Origin: a virus
Virus record (IMG/VR): IMGVR_UViG_3300025120_000065
Span: 1-55,161 of that record
Length of the DNA stretch: 55,161 nt
Reading direction: 5' to 3' (one strand)
In this document: positions 2,459-54,803 of the stretch, piece after piece
Layout of the letters: the number at the start of each line of letters is the position of its first letter
Numbering within the stretch: the stretch's first letter is position 1
Notes under the pieces: model-generated
What the model saw: the letters and a program-made list of their open reading frames with translations, nothing else
Databases searched by the model: none
What the model was told of the DNA's origin: nothing
Program-made: the position numbers and the translations under genes

Positions 2459-3583
2459 TTGCCAAACCTACCACGTTATGTACAAGAACGGGTGTCATCT
2501 ACGGGTGACATCTCATACCGCTTTAACCCGCCACAGAACCTTGTTGATGAGGGTGTGGTCAAACGTGAGGAGTACGGCACAGACCTAAAACAGGTACGCA
2601 AGATTGTTCGTGATCACAACAAGGCGATTGACACATGGCGTGAAGAACAAGCACAGGTTGTACGAGTAAAGTCTAGCAGCAAGGTGACTGATCTTATTAA
2701 CTATTACTATATGTCTAATGATTTCAATGCATTGCGTCATACAACTAAGGTTGACTATAGGTACTTTCTGACTGTGCTGCACCAGACTATGGGGTGGCGT
2801 AAGTATGAGCACGTTACCTCTAAGGTTGCAAAGCAATCATACGAAGAATGGGTCAAACGTGGCATCAGTTTTGCTAATCATGCGGCAACATGTGCCAGTA
2901 GGGTGTACAACTATGCGATACAGATGGAGCACACAACATACAATCCTTGGGCAAACATCAAGCGTAAGTCTGCTGCACAGCGTAAGGTGGTGTGGACACA
3001 TGATGATGTTGTCAAGTTTCTTGACGTAGCATACAGCGACTTTGAGTATCGTAATGTTGGTTTGATTGTACAGATGGCATACGAGTGGTGCCAACGACTA
3101 GGTGACATGCGTATGTTGACGTGGGATAGCATTGACTTTCGTACACAGAAGCTGGCACTAGAACAGAGTAAGCGTAGGGCTGACGTAGAGCTACCAATAT
3201 CAGAGGGTCTATTACACATGTTGAATGAACAACGTAATGACTTTGGTTTTCAAGACTACGTTGCCCCACATCCTAGACCTACGGGTGGTACTTATAACCC
3301 TTATGCTATGGAGAGGCTATCCAAAGTGGGTAGAAGGGTAATGCGTCTAGCTAAACTACCCGAAGAGTTACGTCTTATGGACTTACGTAGGACTGGTGTG
3401 ACACAGATGGTAGATGCAGGTGTACCATTGCCCCAAGTTATGGCAGTGACAGGGCACAATCATGTGTCTTCTGTGAAACCATACATGAAACATACTTACA
3501 CTAGTGCAAATAGTGCCTTGACACAGAGAAACGTAAGTGTATCCTTGAGTGGAGCGAACAACATAGAAAGTGATACAGTATGA
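2459..3583 (+). CDS. int: Tyrosine recombinase / integrase
   Basis: A 374-residue phage-type tyrosine recombinase starting at TTG directly after the upstream TAA, with GGAGG 10 nt before it. An N-terminal SAM-like core-binding region (about residues 65-155) precedes the catalytic domain. Visible catalytic positions are Arg213 (CQRLGDMR), Arg310 (MDLRRTG), His333 (VTGHNHV) and the nucleophile Tyr342 (PYMKHT). The box II motif normally reads HxLR, but the His position is Met307 here. Members of this phage group often carry integrases, so lysogeny or genome-multimer resolution is possible. No repressor or att site was recognised. It overlaps the primase gene by 4 nt. Confidence 0.9.
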   Translation: MPNLPRYVQERVSSTGDISYRFNPPQNLVDEGVVKREEYGTDLKQVRKIVRDHNKAIDTWREEQAQVVRVKSSSKVTDLINYYYMSNDFNALRHTTKVDYRYFLTVLHQTMGWRKYEHVTSKVAKQSYEEWVKRGISFANHAATCASRVYNYAIQMEHTTYNPWANIKRKSAAQRKVVWTHDDVVKFLDVAYSDFEYRNVGLIVQMAYEWCQRLGDMRMLTWDSIDFRTQKLALEQSKRRADVELPISEGLLHMLNEQRNDFGFQDYVAPHPRPTGGTYNPYAMERLSKVGRRVMRLAKLPEELRLMDLRRTGVTQMVDAGVPLPQVMAVTGHNHVSSVKPYMKHTYTSANSALTQRNVSVSLSGANNIESDTV

Positions 3584-26617: not shown

Positions 26618-27577
26618 TTATGTTCCTGCTGCTCCACCTGCGGCTCTGTAAACCCCCCGTGTTAAATCTCCAAAGTCGACAGCGTTACCAGAAGATGCAG
26701 CTATTGTTAAGTATTGAATTACATTTGAAGGACCACTTGCTGAAGCATCCCCACCTGCAACTATCCCTCTACTTGCATCTCCTCCTCCTCCACCTATATC
26801 CTTGTTATGAGTGTTCAGATCACCTATGTCAGTACCATTTCCATTAGTCGCAATAGTAATTCTTTCTATTCTAGATTCACTACCTTGATTTAGCCCCGCA
26901 CAAAAAACACCATACGTTGTATCTGAAATATTACTAGTAGCGTCTGTAAAGTAGTAAGACAAAGCTCCATAGTCTGTAGCATTACCCGCTGTAGCAACAA
27001 TAATTTTTTCTGTTCTGTACAAATCGTCGCCAATCGTAGTAAAAACCCCTATTGTACCGTCACAAACACCAGCACTACCGTCTGCACTATTTTGTGTTAA
27101 GTCACCAAAATCTGTTGCATTACCTGTAGTAGATATAGTAATATAGTCCATTACATTACTATTACCGCCTTCACCACCCGCAAATACACCACGAGTTCCA
27201 TTAGATAAAGAACCCATGCGTCTTCTAGCAACACTCATGTTTCCAAAGTCCGTAGCATTACCAGTAGTACCTATTGTTATATAATCAATAACATCTTGAT
27301 TACTTCCTGTGTAGCCTCCCCCAAAAACTCCTCTACTCCCGTTTGAAGTACCTGCACCTAAATATCTACCAACAGTCAAATCACCGAAGTCTGTAGCATT
27401 ACCTGTTGTTTGTATTGTTACATAGTCCATAACATTTACAGTACTTGCTCCACCTGCGTGTACATATCTAGCACCGTACCATTTAGGAGTATTGTCACCA
27501 CCAACGGCTACACCACCAACAGTTATAACACCGTCATTGCTAATCTCATTTGTTTGATGATTAAATGTTAATGCCAT
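26618..27577 (-). CDS. Propeller adhesin 4, six-bladed (319 aa)
   Basis: It begins MALTFNHQTNEIS, the same head found at the two other stand-alone propeller genes, followed by GVAVGGDNTPKWYG and six repeats of about 48 residues. Each has a (V/I)xxGG, NV(I/M)DYITI, TGNATDFGDL pattern. It ends GGAAGT-stop. Repeat period and closing motif predict a six-bladed beta-propeller. Blade 4 and 5 sequences are most diverged. Ribosome site AGGAACATAAT lies inside the end of the preceding gene. Likely receptor-binding tail fibre or adhesin variant. Confidence 0.72.
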   Translation of the reverse strand: MALTFNHQTNEISNDGVITVGGVAVGGDNTPKWYGARYVHAGGASTVNVMDYVTIQTTGNATDFGDLTVGRYLGAGTSNGSRGVFGGGYTGSNQDVIDYITIGTTGNATDFGNMSVARRRMGSLSNGTRGVFAGGEGGNSNVMDYITISTTGNATDFGDLTQNSADGSAGVCDGTIGVFTTIGDDLYRTEKIIVATAGNATDYGALSYYFTDATSNISDTTYGVFCAGLNQGSESRIERITIATNGNGTDIGDLNTHNKDIGGGGGDASRGIVAGGDASASGPSNVIQYLTIAASSGNAVDFGDLTRGVYRAAGGAAGT

Positions 27578-27578
27578 A

Positions 27579-28112
27579 TTATGTTCCTGAACAGCCACCT
27601 GCGCCATACCTACCTTGAGTTAAGTCTCCAAAGTCAGTAGCATTACCAGTATTAGCTATAGTAATATAATCAATTACAGTATCGTATATTGTACTAAATC
27701 CCCCACCAAATACGCCTCTAGTACCATTAGCAGCACCTGCCATTAAAGTCCTAGCTACAGTTAAATCTCCAAAGTCTGTAGAATTACCTGTTGTATCGGT
27801 AGTAATATACTGCATTACATTAATGTACGGGTAATAACCCCCCGCAAAAACACACCTAGTTTCACTAGAAAGACCACCCATAGAGTCTGACGTGACAACC
27901 AAATCACCAAAGTCAGTAGCATTACCTGTAGTATCTATAGTAATATAATCAATTACGTTACTATAATTATCAGCATAGCCACCTGCAAAAACACCCCTAG
28001 TAGTACCCCCTGCACCAGATATACTATACCTAGCTTGAGTTAAGTCTCCAAAGTCAGTAGCATTACCAGTAGTAGATATAGTGACATAATCTAGCGTGTT
28101 TAACTGACCCAT
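27579..28112 (-). CDS. Propeller adhesin 3, C-terminal part (177 aa) after in-frame stop
   Basis: Encodes most of blade 3 and blades 4-6 of a propeller whose first part is the frame at 28116-28547. The two are in the same frame and separated by one TAA (28116-28118), then TTT, then ATG. The first residues MGQLNTLDYVTISTTGNATD pick up mid-blade. GGAGG from the glycine codons sits about 10 nt before the ATG and could drive restart. It could be a separate cistron, a readthrough product or a broken gene. Confidence 0.6.
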   Translation of the reverse strand: MGQLNTLDYVTISTTGNATDFGDLTQARYSISGAGGTTRGVFAGGYADNYSNVIDYITIDTTGNATDFGDLVVTSDSMGGLSSETRCVFAGGYYPYINVMQYITTDTTGNSTDFGDLTVARTLMAGAANGTRGVFGGGFSTIYDTVIDYITIANTGNATDFGDLTQGRYGAGGCSGT

Positions 28113-28115
28113 AAA

Positions 28116-28547
28116 TTAATTGCCTCCACCAAATACACCACGAGTACCATTACTTGCAGAGGCAAGTGTATCTCTACCTACAGTCAAATCACCAAAGTCA
28201 GTAGCATTGCCAGTAGTAGATATGGTAATATAGTCCATAGTATTTACTCTACCTGCACCACTTGCATTCCCACCACCAAATACCCCACGAGTACGGTTAC
28301 TTACGGCAGTAGTGCCATCTCTTCCTTGAGTTAAATTACCAAAATCAGTAGCATTACCTGTTGAAGCTATGGTAATATAATCTATGGTGTCTAATTTACC
28401 ATTATTAAGATTACCTCCACCGAATACACCACGAGAACCGTAGAAAAAAACAGGACTATTATCCCCACCAACGGCTACACCATTAAAAGTCGTAGCCCCT
28501 GTTAAGTTGCTTATATCGTCTGTCTGATAATTAATTGTTAATGCCAT
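28116..28547 (-). CDS. Propeller adhesin 3, N-terminal part (143 aa), stops mid-blade
   Basis: It starts MALTINYQTDDIS with ribosome site AGGAACATAAT, then GVAVGGDNSPVFFYG and two complete blades. It ends at GVFGGGN just where the third blade should continue with an NTLDYVTI strand. The continuation is present in the same frame after a single TAA. Joined, the two pieces give exactly six blades, as in the intact paralogues. Confidence 0.62.
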   Translation of the reverse strand: MALTINYQTDDISNLTGATTFNGVAVGGDNSPVFFYGSRGVFGGGNLNNGKLDTIDYITIASTGNATDFGNLTQGRDGTTAVSNRTRGVFGGGNASGAGRVNTMDYITISTTGNATDFGDLTVGRDTLASASNGTRGVFGGGN

Positions 28548-28548
28548 A

Positions 28549-29529
28549 TTATGTTCCTGAAAGACCTGCCATTGCTTTTCTAGCAACAGTTAAATCGCCA
28601 AAGTCTATAGCGTTGCCAGTAGTATCTATAGTCACATAGTCTATTGTATTATACCTAGTTGAACTACTGTAACCCCCTGCAATAGTAGCCCTGACTGCGT
28701 TTGAAGCCGCTGAAGGTTGTTGTCTTGCAACAGTAAGATCACCAAAATCAGTAGCATTACCTGCTGTAGCCATAGTTACATAATCAATTACATTGGAGGG
28801 GCCAGCGCCACCTGCAAATAAAGCCCTGACTGTACTGCCTGTAGAATACCTGTCCTGAATAGTAACGGTCATGTCACCAAAGTCAGTTGAATTACCTTCT
28901 GTTTGTATACTTAAATATTCTATAGTATTAACTATAGCAAAACTAGGAGCAGATATAATCCCAAGATGAAAAACTGCCCTATCTCCATTAGACCAGCCCT
29001 GTGGCGGTTTAGCAGCAGGTACTGTGCCACTGTAAGATGTAGCATTCCCTGTTGTTGCTATTGTAATTTTTTCTACATTTGTTATACCCTGATTTGAACT
29101 ATTTGTTCCTGCTATTATAATACCTTTAACTCCATCAGATGCACTCGCTGGACTTTGCCTACCTGTAGTAAGGTCTCCAAAATCTACAGCATTCGCTAGA
29201 GTAGCTACAGTAAAATAATCTATATCAGTTGTGTAGTTATACCCACCCCCAACTACCCCACGAGAGCCATCTGAAATTCCAAACGGCGATCTTCCTCTTT
29301 CAGCTACAAGATTGCCAAAGTCGGTGGCATTGCCTGTTGAAGCTATGGTTATGTAATCTATAACATTGGAAAAACCACTTCCAACAGCATCATACCCACC
29401 AGCAAATACACCTCTTGAACCATACCAAAAACGGGGCGTATTATCACCACCAACGGCTACGCCATTAACAAGGATAGTACCAGTAGCATTGCTAATGTCG
29501 TTAGTCTGATGGTTTATGGTGAGAGCCAT
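28549..29529 (-). CDS. Propeller adhesin 2, six-bladed (326 aa)
   Basis: An intact paralogue starting MALTINHQTNDIS, then GVAVGGDNTPRFWYGSRG and six blades, ending AGLSGT. Blades 3 and 4 have the divergent forms NVEKITIATTGNATSYSGT and NTIEYLSIQTEGNSTDFG, which are also found at blades 3 and 4 of the main fibre propeller. This shows recent duplication of a whole propeller. Probably displayed at the tail for host recognition. Confidence 0.72.
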   Translation of the reverse strand: MALTINHQTNDISNATGTILVNGVAVGGDNTPRFWYGSRGVFAGGYDAVGSGFSNVIDYITIASTGNATDFGNLVAERGRSPFGISDGSRGVVGGGYNYTTDIDYFTVATLANAVDFGDLTTGRQSPASASDGVKGIIIAGTNSSNQGITNVEKITIATTGNATSYSGTVPAAKPPQGWSNGDRAVFHLGIISAPSFAIVNTIEYLSIQTEGNSTDFGDMTVTIQDRYSTGSTVRALFAGGAGPSNVIDYVTMATAGNATDFGDLTVARQQPSAASNAVRATIAGGYSSSTRYNTIDYVTIDTTGNAIDFGDLTVARKAMAGLSGT

Positions 29530-50961: not shown

Positions 50962-50993
50962 TGTCAATACTTAATTTGTACAAATATAAAAGG

Positions 50994-51010
50994 ACTTGCC
51001 TACGGCAAGT
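50994..51010 (-). terminator. Hairpin in late leader, possible attenuator
   Basis: ACTTGCC-(3 nt)-GGCAAGT forms a perfect 7-bp stem. Read on the minus strand it is followed by CCTTTTATATTT, so it looks like an intrinsic terminator placed between the predicted late promoter and the first late gene. It could hold back late transcription until an antitermination step, but this is inference. Confidence 0.5.
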
Positions 51011-51089
51011 TACCATTTAAATGTATCACTGTACGTGTATACTTACATATAATTATAGTTACATAATATTTAAGAGATTAGTATAAGTG

Positions 51090-51118
51090 ATTATAAGTGT
51101 ATACTGTACGTGTATCAC
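51090..51118 (-). promoter_or_regulatory. Candidate late promoter (GTGATA-17-TATAAT)
   Basis: On the minus strand GTGATA (51118-51113) is followed by TATAAT (51095-51090) with a 17-nt spacer. The -35-like GTGATA matches the GTGANA element seen at the early hairpin promoters. Points at the first late gene with a leader of about 120 nt. Flanking CACTTATA/TATAAGTG inverted repeats could be regulator sites. Confidence 0.45.
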
Positions 51119-51640
51119 TTATAGTGACCCTACCCTAACTAACATATATAGTTTTACACATTATATAATACATGTCAACCCCTAATCGTACAGTTGTAAC
51201 ATTATGTGATATACTGAAACATTTTGTTACCTATAATGTATCACGATTTGTTTCACATGTGTAACCCTACGTGTATGTAAACCACCTTATGTGTATAGTG
51301 GTTAACAGTCACATTTTCCTGATCTGTGTATGAGTACATGTATATATATACGTATACCCCCCGCATGGCCCCTGCCCACCCGTGCATGACACACGTACAC
51401 ATCACACATCATGTGCTTGCATCGCTGGTGTACACATTATGCGACACACATCACACCAACACACGAGGAACTGTAACAAAAACAATGCTTTACGATACTG
51501 CGACAACTGTTATGTAATCAGTTGCCATACTAAAGTATGATGTGAACCACGGGATATAGAAAGGTGGTGAGTGTTGAAGAGTTGATGCATATTATCCTCT
51601 AACAGAGTTAGTGCCATCACAAATCAATCAAACCAATAGT

Positions 51641-51654
51641 GTCCAACATTGGAC
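51641..51654. promoter_or_regulatory. GTCCAA palindrome copy 1
   Basis: GTCCAACATTGGAC in the divergent region, in the orientation opposite to the other contexts: read on the minus strand it is GTCCAATGTTGGAC followed by ACACT. It is the only copy upstream of the early transcription start region. Confidence 0.65.
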
Positions 51655-51825
51655 ATGTCACAGTATAACTGTGGTAATTATGCAACACCAACTGTTTGCC
51701 CAACCCAAACTAGCCTCACGAGTTTAGCGCACGAACTTCGTAATTATTTATAATTACTGCAGTAGCATGGGAAACGACAGGCGCAGAGGATCACATGTGA
51801 AGAACCGACTTGACAGAACTTATAC

Positions 51826-51904
51826 TATATTCTACTAGTTTATAAAGAGAACTATATCTCACTATTTGTGAGAGATATAGGTTCTCTCATATAAACAGAA
51901 TATA
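51826..51904 (+). promoter_or_regulatory. Long hairpin/promoter before first early gene
   Basis: A 79-nt imperfect hairpin: TATATTCT...AGAATATA outside, then GTTTATA/TATAAAC, AGAGAAC/GTTCTCT, TATATCTC/GAGATATA region and CTCAC-TATTT-GTGAG at the tip. GTGAGA (51868-51873) and TATAAA (51890-51895) with a 16-nt spacer form a promoter-like pair in the 3' arm. This is analogous to the two other hairpins at 52862 and 53448. The ribosome site AAAGGATAAACCG for the first gene follows. Confidence 0.55.
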
Positions 51905-51921
51905 GATAAAAGGATAAACCG

Positions 51922-52497: not shown

Positions 52498-52694
52498 GGT
52501 ACAAAGTACCTAACACCAAAGCAAGCGTTGAGCAATCACAGCTTGACGCTGCTATGGCACAGTTCTGTGAACTCGCAGACGATATGAACCGTCCAACATT
52601 GGACACTTTGATTGCTAACACATTAACTCCTAAAGAGTTAAAGCAACACGAACCAACACTTATCTACGATAGTGGATGGAAGGATGTATCATGA
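52494..52694 (+). CDS. Hypothetical protein (66 aa)
   Basis: Begins MRYKVPNTKASVEQSQLDAA, helical, with ELADDMNRPTLDTLIANTLT and ends YDSGWKDVS. It overlaps the upstream gene by 4 nt (ATGA) and the next by 4 nt. A palindrome copy inside it encodes RPTLD in a different frame from copy 2. Unknown function. Confidence 0.68.
   Translation: MRYKVPNTKASVEQSQLDAAMAQFCELADDMNRPTLDTLIANTLTPKELKQHEPTLIYDSGWKDVS
52591..52604. promoter_or_regulatory. GTCCAA palindrome copy 3 (inside coding sequence)
   Basis: GTCCAACATTGGAC with flanks ACC and ACTTT, within the 66-residue gene. Reading frame differs from copies 2 and 7 (R-P-T-L-D instead of P-S-N-V-G-Q), so conservation is at the DNA level. Confidence 0.75.
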
Positions 52695-52858
52695 AGATTA
52701 TTCTCGCTATTGCTTGGTCTGTAATACTTGTATTACTTACCTATTTGACCATTGCCGTTGTATCACTCAATGGTCACTTGCATATACTCATTGGCATTGC
52801 GGTGCCTGTGGCAATGTTGGGCTTTATCACAATTTGTGAACGGCCTCTTGACAAGTAG
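52691..52858 (+). CDS. Two-helix membrane protein (55 aa)
   Basis: Two hydrophobic helices (MKIILAIAWSVILVLLTYLT and HILIGIAVPVAMLGFITIC) with a short polar end. Start ATG 52691 overlaps the upstream stop; an in-frame ATG 15 nt earlier is possible. Its stop is followed within 3 nt by the hairpin at 52862. Unknown role, perhaps host membrane interference. Confidence 0.65.
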   Translation: MKIILAIAWSVILVLLTYLTIAVVSLNGHLHILIGIAVPVAMLGFITICERPLDK

Positions 52859-52861
52859 TAT

Positions 52862-52920
52862 TACATAGTTATATAAACACTTGAAACTTTAGTGAAAGTG
52901 TTATATAACATATGTATAAT
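52862..52920 (+). promoter_or_regulatory. Hairpin with embedded promoter, copy A
   Basis: Stem GTTATATAAACACTT (52868-52882) pairs with AAGTGTTATATAAC (52896-52909) with one bulged base; outer TACATA/TATGTA extends it. The 13-nt loop GAAACTTTAGTGA resembles the loop of copy B (GATACTTTAGTGA). GTGAAA (52892-52897) and TATAAT (52915-52920) with a 17-nt spacer form a promoter-like pair, and the palindrome copy at 52940 begins about 20 nt after the -10 box. Confidence 0.65.
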
Positions 52921-52939
52921 ACTAAAGATAACTGAAACC

Positions 52940-52953
52940 GTCCAATGTTGGAC
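52940..52953. promoter_or_regulatory. GTCCAA palindrome copy 4
   Basis: GTCCAATGTTGGAC followed by ACTTTAAACGGAGTTTAT, which supplies the ribosome site of the next gene. It is downstream of hairpin promoter A, at about +13, and so a good operator position. A run of about 38 nt is shared with copy 5. Confidence 0.8.
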
Positions 52954-52972
52954 ACTTTAAACGGAGTTTATT

Positions 52973-53209
52973 ATGGATTTAGATTTTTTCAGTGATTTGT
53001 ACAAAGATGTACATGGCATTAGACCTCGTGGTATTGTGCCAACACCAGAAATGGTGGACTACTTACAACGTGAGTTGGAATACCAACTTGCAGAGGAACG
53101 TGCCGATGAGGATGCAAGCATCAATGCTTGTATGGATCATGGTGCTCCCGACATAGACACTGCCATGCGGTGGCTTGAACAAGCTAACATCCACGCTGAG
53201 TGGGTATGA
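52973..53209 (+). CDS. Hypothetical protein of widespread small phage type (78 aa)
   Basis: Begins MDLDFFSDLYKDVHGIRPRG, a motif (DFFSDLYKDxxGxRPR) found in small proteins of many phages and plasmids, followed by acidic helices and a Trp-containing end. It is preceded by promoter A and operator copy 4, and followed by operator copy 5. No biochemical role is established. Confidence 0.75.
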   Translation: MDLDFFSDLYKDVHGIRPRGIVPTPEMVDYLQRELEYQLAEERADEDASINACMDHGAPDIDTAMRWLEQANIHAEWV

Positions 53210-53217
53210 TTGAAACC

Positions 53218-53231
53218 GTCCAATGTTGGAC
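53218..53231. promoter_or_regulatory. GTCCAA palindrome copy 5
   Basis: GTCCAATGTTGGAC followed by ACTTTAAACGGAGTTTAT and the next ATG. No hairpin promoter precedes this copy, so it may act on the mRNA or DNA near the ribosome site rather than at a promoter. Confidence 0.8.
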
Positions 53232-53253
53232 ACTTTAAACGGAGTTTATAAAA

Positions 53254-53448
53254 ATGTTGGAAATTACTCGTAGATCAATCGTTTCTGGTGTTGAAAACAC
53301 AATGAAACTTGACGTTACCATGCATGAGTACTTGCTATGGCGTGAGGGTATGCTCATCCAAGAGGCAATGCCTAACTTGTTAGCAGTGGAACGTGAGTTC
53401 CTCATTACAGGAATGAGTGAAGCGGAGCAAGCTGAACATTGTGTATAG
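53254..53448 (+). CDS. Small conserved phage/plasmid-type protein (64 aa)
   Basis: Begins MLEITRRSIVSGVENTMKLD, then LLWREGMLIQEAMPNL and REFLITGMSEAEQ. The pattern LxxWxxGxLIQxAMPxLxxxxREFxxTG is a recurrent small protein family in phages and integrative elements with no known function. Ribosome site CGGAGTTTATAAAA. Its TAG overlaps the 5' arm of hairpin B. Confidence 0.72.
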   Translation: MLEITRRSIVSGVENTMKLDVTMHEYLLWREGMLIQEAMPNLLAVEREFLITGMSEAEQAEHCV

Positions 53449-53505
53449 TATAAGTTATATATACTTGATACTTTAGTGAAAGTATATATAACTTATACAT
53501 ATACT
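53448..53505 (+). promoter_or_regulatory. Hairpin with embedded promoter, copy B
   Basis: Perfect 19-bp stem GTATAAGTTATATATACTT (53448-53466) / AAGTATATATAACTTATAC (53480-53498) with the 13-nt loop GATACTTTAGTGA. GTGAAA (53476-53481) and TATACT (53500-53505) at an 18-nt spacer form a promoter-like pair, and palindrome copy 6 follows at 53522. The stem differs in sequence from copy A but keeps pairing, which implies selection for structure. Confidence 0.68.
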
Positions 53506-53521
53506 AACCACCACCGAAACC

Positions 53522-53535
53522 GTCCAATGTTGGAC
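53522..53535. promoter_or_regulatory. GTCCAA palindrome copy 6
   Basis: GTCCAATGTTGGAC followed by ACTTTAAAAGGACGATACA and the ATG of the glycosylase-like gene. It lies at about +10 of hairpin promoter B, in the same geometry as copy 4 to promoter A. Confidence 0.8.
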
Positions 53536-53554: not shown

Positions 53555-54184
53555 ATGTATCAACGTGATGTAAATGAAATCAAAGCATTCGTAAAATGGC
53601 GTGGCCCAGATGCCTTGGTAAACACTGGCCTGTTTGTACTGCTTACGATACAAGCTGGCCTATCCACAGTACGTGGCAGCATGGTCAAGGTTGAACGTGA
53701 CTTCTACCAAGCTGATTGCTTGTGGGGTAAGAAAGCTGATGGCTACGAGTACCTAAACGAGAACCGTGATTTCTTATATGGCAAGCTGTATCACATTGCT
53801 GACACCAAAGGTTACGAAAGCGTAGAAGCGTGTGCCGATGTTATACAGTTGTTCATGGCTGTACCTAACCTTGGCATGGTCAAAGCTGCCTTCCTAGCTC
53901 AATGCTTAGGCTTCAATGTGGCATGTATTGACAGCCACAACATCAAGCGGTTGGGTATATCACCTAACCTTGTGAAGACGCCACCATCAGGCATGAAACC
54001 TGCGACAGTACGAAAGAAAGTTGAGCAGTATGTCGAACTGACCCAGCAAGAGGGCACTGAGTACTGGTGGAATACATGGTGCGAATATGTGGCAGGTAAT
54101 CGTGCCAACCGTGCTTTGGATACTGGTGACGTAGTGTCTAGGTATCATGTAGAATGTGTAACATATGGATTTGAACATGGCTAA
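53555..54184 (+). CDS. HhH-GPD glycosylase-like early protein (209 aa)
   Basis: Residues about 105-140 contain VPNLGMVKAAFLAQCLGFNV followed by ACIDSHNIKRLG. This matches the helix-hairpin-helix and catalytic Asp loop of endonuclease III-type glycosylases (LPGxGxKTAN...VDTHIxR). The Fe-S Cys cluster of EndoIII is absent. C-terminal half is basic/helical (MKPATVRKKVEQYVELTQQE). It could act on modified or damaged bases, or be a catalytically dead DNA binder. Confidence 0.6.
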   Translation: MYQRDVNEIKAFVKWRGPDALVNTGLFVLLTIQAGLSTVRGSMVKVERDFYQADCLWGKKADGYEYLNENRDFLYGKLYHIADTKGYESVEACADVIQLFMAVPNLGMVKAAFLAQCLGFNVACIDSHNIKRLGISPNLVKTPPSGMKPATVRKKVEQYVELTQQEGTEYWWNTWCEYVAGNRANRALDTGDVVSRYHVECVTYGFEHG

Positions 54185-54464: not shown

Positions 54465-54803
54465 ATGACCGACACTAATGTAAATGCACCCGTAGTAAAA
54501 ACTTCACACCCTGAGTTGTATGCAGAGCATACGTATCACATGAAGAAAGCCGTATGTTATACATATAACTACGTGGTAATTGACGAAGTTATTCGTGAGC
54601 TTTGGGGTGACATGACTATGGCAGAGATTGCCGAAGCGTTAAACGAGTACCCAAATCGTATTGCGTATCGTGTCCAAGTTTTAAAAGATCTTGGCGTAAT
54701 CAAAGGCAAGTATAACATGCACCGCTCAAACCTTATGCGGCAACGTAAAGAGGCGGCTACATGGCTGAAAGAAATTGACGCAGAGCTTGCAAAGGTAAGC
54801 TAA
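54465..54803 (+). CDS. Putative winged-helix DNA-binding regulator (112 aa)
   Basis: After a disordered N terminus, residues about 40-90 read VVIDEVIRELWGDMTMAEIA then ALNEYPNRIAYRVQVLKDLG and a wing-like VIKGKYNMHRSN. This is a winged-helix pattern. The C-terminal 30 residues are a charged helix. As the only recognisable transcription-factor-type gene in the early module it is a candidate to bind the GTCCAA palindromes. Ribosome site is TAGGAGCTAACACA. Confidence 0.65.
   Translation: MTDTNVNAPVVKTSHPELYAEHTYHMKKAVCYTYNYVVIDEVIRELWGDMTMAEIAEALNEYPNRIAYRVQVLKDLGVIKGKYNMHRSNLMRQRKEAATWLKEIDAELAKVS

Follow-up and report, generated by a model that had tools for sequence, protein, structure and literature searches.

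Why should two hairpins with different stems carry nearly the same loop behind the stop codons of two phage genes, and do they act as DNA or as RNA? The question is raised by the window, that is, the whole stretch of 55,161 nt that was analysed (IMG/VR record IMGVR_UViG_3300025120_000065), in which both AU-rich hairpins, A and B, lie on the plus strand in the early arm of a podovirus of the HMO-2011 type. The sequence-only reading had proposed selection for structure, either as cruciform DNA at a promoter or as an RNA 3′ end of the upstream gene. The two structures were found at the positions it had given, with different stems and with 13-nt loops that differ at one base, and they belong to a family of RNA hairpins that had not been catalogued before.

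Hairpin A (52868-52909) consists of a 14-bp stem, with a 1-nt bulge (one A) in the 5′ arm (52868-52882), the loop GAAACTTTAGTGA (52883-52895) and a 3′ arm (52896-52909), and folds with an MFE of -13.1 kcal/mol (z -3.6). Hairpin B (53448-53498) has 19 perfect base pairs, formed by arms at 53448-53466 and 53480-53498, around the loop GATACTTTAGTGA (53467-53479), and reaches an MFE of -23.5 kcal/mol (z -5.7). The gene upstream of A ends with a TAG codon (52856-52858) 9 nt before the hairpin, while the stop codon of the gene upstream of B (53446-53448) overlaps the hairpin by 1 nt. Stems of at least 14 bp with a loop of 6-16 nt did not occur in six first-order Markov trials of window length, in which respect the window stands out with the 19 bp of B, and ACTTTAGTGAAAGT, with up to one mismatch, has exactly two copies in the window. 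Covariance model R1 recovered both hairpins (E 4e-9 and 5e-7; A with 41.0 bits, B with 49.3 bits and E 3.7e-9), and the E-value of the next match in the window was not below 0.9.

More than 200 loci of relatives were obtained from IMG/VR by means of two protein searches and a single scan for the loop pattern. Covariation at such loci, the check that had been suggested at the outset, was strong: among 24 distinct hairpins, which are a biased sample because they had been preselected for pairing, all 11 stem pairs tested showed double substitutions, and the covariation score of 0.78, versus 0.21 in shuffles, was reached by none of 500 shuffles. A less biased set comprised all 49 distinct matches to a loop pattern consisting of the loop and four bases of the 3′ arm. 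Complementary arms of at least 6 bp were present in about 34 of the 49 and absent from about 15, a split that would be expected from a mix of the real family and chance matches. The six outer positions were fully paired in 19 of the 49, compared with 2.7 after partner swapping, and most of the pairing was lost when arms were exchanged between matches. Further stems, some of them GC-rich (for example, ggattaCCCCTT/AAGGGGataatcc and TCTCCTCATTCTCTTT/AAAGAGAATGAGGGAGA), came from another scan, for which the 12-nt loop TTGAACTTTAGTGAAA was used. Since the stems covary, the structure is under selection, and the original suggestion to this effect is also supported by the paired/unpaired split and the partner-swap test.

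The anatomy of the family is uniform in the loop and variable in the stem. Among 85 distinct hairpins, the loop has a length of 12 or 13 nt in 79, its 5′ end is GA in 75, and its 3′ end is GTGA or ATGA in 82; an inner 2-bp helix (AC/GU, AU/AU, GC/GU and others) is possible in 75, mostly with a UUUA tetraloop. The cap has the form GA-(N)-AC-UUUA-GU-GA, 12-13 nt long, and can fold into two G-A mismatches, a 2-bp helix and a UUUA tetraloop on top of a mostly AU-rich stem of 13-19 bp. At least 11 uninterrupted base pairs are found in 53 of the 85 hairpins, and a single bulge or mismatch at a distance of 4-10 bp from the loop in 31. Rfam 15 contained no family that matched the window region at the gathering threshold, the best scores being low-complexity microRNA matches far below it, and gave no match at E 0.1 for five loci of relatives; a search of the literature for a described element of this kind also found none. 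A related subfamily with CTCTC/GAGAG stems and the cap CCTTTAGGGTGA or CCCTTGGGGTGA was observed on the minus strand at L139:9524, L148:1841 and L213:8058, and the cap ACTTTTTGTGA in L123 and L138; all of these caps have a similar tetraloop and the 3′ GTGA, and lack the 5′ GA.

The placement of the hairpins is informative about the level at which they act. Of the 128 distinct hits, 115 are bounded by a stop codon upstream and a start codon with an SD motif downstream when read in sense, as opposed to only 16 when read in antisense, and a single hit (1/128) is located inside an ORF. The upstream stop codon lies at the 5′ arm or immediately precedes it, its median distance to the model core being 11 nt; on the other side, about 50 nt (median) separate the core from the next gene's start codon. 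None of the 128 hits has a clear U-tract after the stem, the maximum being 5 T in 8 nt (3/128). An intrinsic terminator, which would have a GC-rich stem and a U-tract, is ruled out by this absence, and the stems of the family are mostly AT-rich. The sense orientation, the position at junctions between stop codon and SD motif and the missing U-tract thus speak for an RNA element rather than for a DNA cruciform or an intrinsic terminator, and the same conclusion follows from the fixed orientation, the attachment to the upstream stop codon, and the combination of a free stem sequence with a fixed cap. This stop-proximal, sense-only placement agrees with the option that the hairpin forms the RNA 3′ end of the upstream gene.

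The promoter option rested on boxes behind the hairpins, TATAAT at 52915-52920 and TATACT at 53500-53505 (both on the plus strand), which are possible -10 motifs. The distances reported for them, 17 nt from GTGAAA to TATAAT at A and 18 nt from GTGAAA to TATACT at B, proved correct, and the matches to the sigma-70 hexamers amount to 10/12 at A and 9/12 at B, with GTGAAA contributing 4/6 as the -35 motif. It should be noted that GTGAAA is part of the conserved loop and is present also in groups without a -10 motif, and that the number of sigma-70-like matches in the region (15, versus 20 expected) is not above chance. Among the 34 HMO context clusters, 6 have a box at 22-24 nt from the loop, compared with an expectation of 1.2 and a maximum of 6 across 500 shuffle sets; among 24 clusters of the other groups there are 2, versus 0.6 expected, which is not a clear enrichment. 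The putative -10 box is a minority side feature of the HMO lineage, and cruciform DNA at a promoter is not supported as a general explanation, because loop and stem are conserved in groups without it. Two other kinds of promoter were rejected. The reverse complement of the loop, TCACTAAAG, resembles the core of the T3 promoter, but the flanks that a T7/T3-like polymerase would read on the minus strand are the free stems; an N4-type hairpin promoter differs in size and does not agree with the variable stem.

The family is found in phages that have hardly any genes in common. Model R1 detected it in HMO-2011, CRP-1, CRP-345 and many uncultured relatives, in a second group of uncultured phages of about 40 kb (G001-G004) with four to five copies per record, and in a third group, L315 and L303, of whose proteins 0/23 and 1/8, respectively, match either of the other groups. 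The endolysin is the only protein that G003, of the 40-kb group, shares with HMO-type phages. Judged from these comparisons of sequences, at least three unrelated phage groups carry the hairpin. Only a subset of the HMO-2011-type phages has it, and it is absent in the isolates CRP-2, CRP-207, CRP-603, CRP-3, CRP-212, CRP-738 and HTVC033P. CRP-2 infects the same host strain as the hairpin-bearing CRP-1, FZCC0023, yet lacks the hairpin, which is therefore not required by this strain. In 257 Gb of cellular genomes the exact core pattern occurred four times, which is about chance by our own estimate, and none of the four was a full hairpin.

What could the signal be used for? The explanation that we consider best, albeit with somewhat less than even confidence, is an mRNA processing or 3′-end stability signal between phage genes. 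Hairpins A and B would be two copies of one structured RNA family that punctuates the polycistronic early mRNA. The transcript would fold into the capped hairpin right behind the upstream stop codon, a host double-strand endoribonuclease, most likely RNase III or an enzyme acting similarly, would cut the stem, and the remnant of the hairpin would shield the upstream mRNA at its 3′ end, while the downstream gene would start on its own short leader, in the manner of the RNase III sites between the early genes of T7. Within this explanation, selection acts on the stem through pairing alone and on the cap through its sequence, which would be expected if one factor reads the cap. In the HMO-2011 lineage the junctions may be further equipped with a promoter and a site of translational or transcriptional control, in the form of the -10-like box and the second small hairpin behind it, and they may double as breakpoints of gene exchange.

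The parallel with the T7 sites R0.3-R1.3 is that these hairpins also lie in sense orientation in the gaps between early genes, with the leader of the next gene behind them; the intercistronic position of the 115 hits agrees with this arrangement and would imply a transcript that spans both genes. The T7 sites are read by a host enzyme, and a host reader is likely also for the new family, since HMO-type and 40-kb phages share only the endolysin and a BLAST search of 23 phage records with the hairpin found no RNase III gene. RNase III suggests itself as the candidate in view of the T7 parallel, the lack of a phage-encoded enzyme in the records tested and the cleavage of the T7 R1.1 hairpin by the alphaproteobacterial RNase III of S. 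meliloti, which has its own site preferences (PMC6121014). Alternatively, the reader could be a short or diverged phage protein that escapes BLAST. Several features do not fit the T7 model: many stems, including that of B, are perfect helices without an internal loop of the R1.1 type, which counts against RNase III, and whereas the T7 sites have a conserved stem with an internal loop and a variable apical loop, the new family shows the reverse. Accordingly, T7 yielded no match to model R1, and the conserved loop is absent at its RNase III sites. No requirement of bacterial RNase III for a conserved apical loop is known to us, and the conservation of the loop therefore suggests an additional or other reader. 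Loop-guided cleavage is exemplified by the yeast RNase III Rnt1p, which recognizes NGNN tetraloops and whose substrates likewise combine a conserved cap with a stem of free sequence and similar length; Rnt1p is, however, a eukaryotic enzyme with a different loop, and we know of no bacterial case of loop-guided RNase III substrates. That a conserved host factor reads the signal via the apical loop, and that at least three unrelated phage groups make independent use of it, is an unlikely proposition at present; if true, it would represent loop-guided cleavage or 3′-end formation in bacteria.

Three other readings of the hairpin have to be weighed against processing or stabilization. A host or small phage RNA-binding regulator could bind the capped loop and control the translation of the next gene or the coupling of the two genes. 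The conserved loop on a free stem and the proximity of the next start codon would be in accordance with this, but the hairpin adjoins the upstream stop codon rather than the downstream SD motif, and the endolysin as sole common protein of two carrier groups also speaks against it, so that such a regulator is possible but on the whole rather doubtful. A put/nut-like RNA that modifies RNA polymerase and brings about antitermination in early transcripts would need no common phage protein, and a structured element in sense orientation with several copies in early operons would suit it; we nevertheless regard it as improbable, because the hairpins are found also at junctions inside clusters, and not only at operon starts, and there are no known terminators to overcome. 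Very improbable is an element acting at the DNA level, either a promoter cruciform or a recombinase site, in spite of the long AT-rich palindromes and the tyrosine integrase encoded by the phage: unrelated stem sequences cannot serve as a sequence-specific arm site, and they rule out a recombinase core site, while the orientation is fixed in sense and the placement stop-proximal.

An architectural resemblance of another kind is that to the PeSLs (promoter-early stem-loop cassettes) of T4-like phages, which were reportedly described by Arbiol et al. in 2010 and Comeau et al. in 2014. The claim that no element like this has been described is upheld by Rfam but has to be qualified, as PeSLs and the T7 RNase III hairpins have a kindred architecture. 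PeSL junctions are reported to be gene exchange points (PMC4503421), and exchange is suggested also here. The window has the order gene-A-leader-gene-leader-gene-B-leader-gene, all on the plus strand, with a hypothetical protein of 55 aa upstream of A (52691-52858), one of 78 aa between A and the middle leader (52973-53209), in place of which relatives have other genes, phrog_20898 (64 aa, 53254-53448) ending at B, and a hypothetical protein of 209 aa after B (53555-54184). In relatives, hairpin A is flanked by seven gene families upstream and seven downstream, and it is directly joined to the homologue of 53555-54184, which follows B in the window, in L048, and to that of 53254-53448, which follows the middle leader, in L011. 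The junctions therefore look like gene exchange points, and shuffled genes surround a conserved cassette, as in PeSLs. A PeSL-like mobile cassette, in which homologous recombination at stem-loop and promoter shuffles genes and the stem-loop ends the upstream transcript, would also agree with the similarity of the three 60-nt leaders and the excess of boxes in the HMO clusters. Relative to PeSLs as summarized in PMC4503421, the likeness comprises an intergenic stem-loop in several copies, shuffled flanking genes and a promoter-like box in part of the HMO lineage, whereas the new family differs by the missing terminator U-tract, the conserved 12-13 nt cap and the occurrence in unrelated phages, and by the absence of the box from most copies and from two of the three phage groups. 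Moreover, the stems are specific for their junctions and of no help to exchange between junctions, the shared sequence being mostly leader, and we consider the cassette an unlikely explanation.

An mRNA processing or stability signal would, if confirmed, mean that the separation of genes on long transcripts relies on a common RNA signal in phages of marine bacteria such as SAR116 and roseobacters, whose gene expression has received little attention. Already now the family represents an uncatalogued, strongly covarying RNA in abundant marine phages with almost no common genes; it offers a handle on the presumed host factor and marks breakpoints for swaps of small genes among these phages.

The leaders contain a second element, the small hairpin or GTCCAA palindrome GTCCAATGTTGGAC, which is present on the plus strand before the SD motif at 52940-52953, at the junction without a large hairpin (53218-53231) and after hairpin B (53522-53535). 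The three 60-nt leaders that combine it with an SD motif are 75-80% alike overall and identical over the palindrome. Its 14-bp form GTCCAAYRTTGGAC occurs seven times in the window (51641, 52314, 52591, 52940, 53218, 53522 and 54357) versus 0.5 expected; all copies are in the early arm, and two are in predicted coding sequence upstream of hairpin A. The palindrome is found also in the first gene of CRP-1 and CRP-345. A GC-rich palindrome is present behind 62 of the 89 HMO junctions, versus just 3 of 41 outside the HMO lineage. It mostly has the form GTCC-N-N4-N′-GGAC, with A-T, G-C, T-A or C-G as the fifth pair and A-T, T-A or G-C as the flanking pair among relatives, and its variants GTCCGATGTCGGAC, GTCCTACCTAGGAC and GTCCCAACATTGGGAC covary; these pair changes indicate that the palindrome is either a small structured element in its own right or an operator with dyad symmetry. 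A 112-aa protein encoded at 54465-54803 has weak winged-helix similarity (PF13412 below the cut-off; phrog_323, E 0.004) and is a possible early regulator or reader of the palindrome.

Three further regions of the window deserve mention. The approximately 950 bp between the divergent late and early arms (50968-51921) contain TA/CA-rich simple repeats and are likely a control region. A tyrosine integrase is encoded in the early arm at 2459-3583 (phrog_1, E 1.8e-31), and the phage may therefore be temperate. Lastly, adjacent minus-strand ORFs at 26618-29529 repeat the same ITI-TTGNATDFGDLT motif and represent either a set of fibre-like genes rich in repeats or a single gene interrupted by frame breaks.
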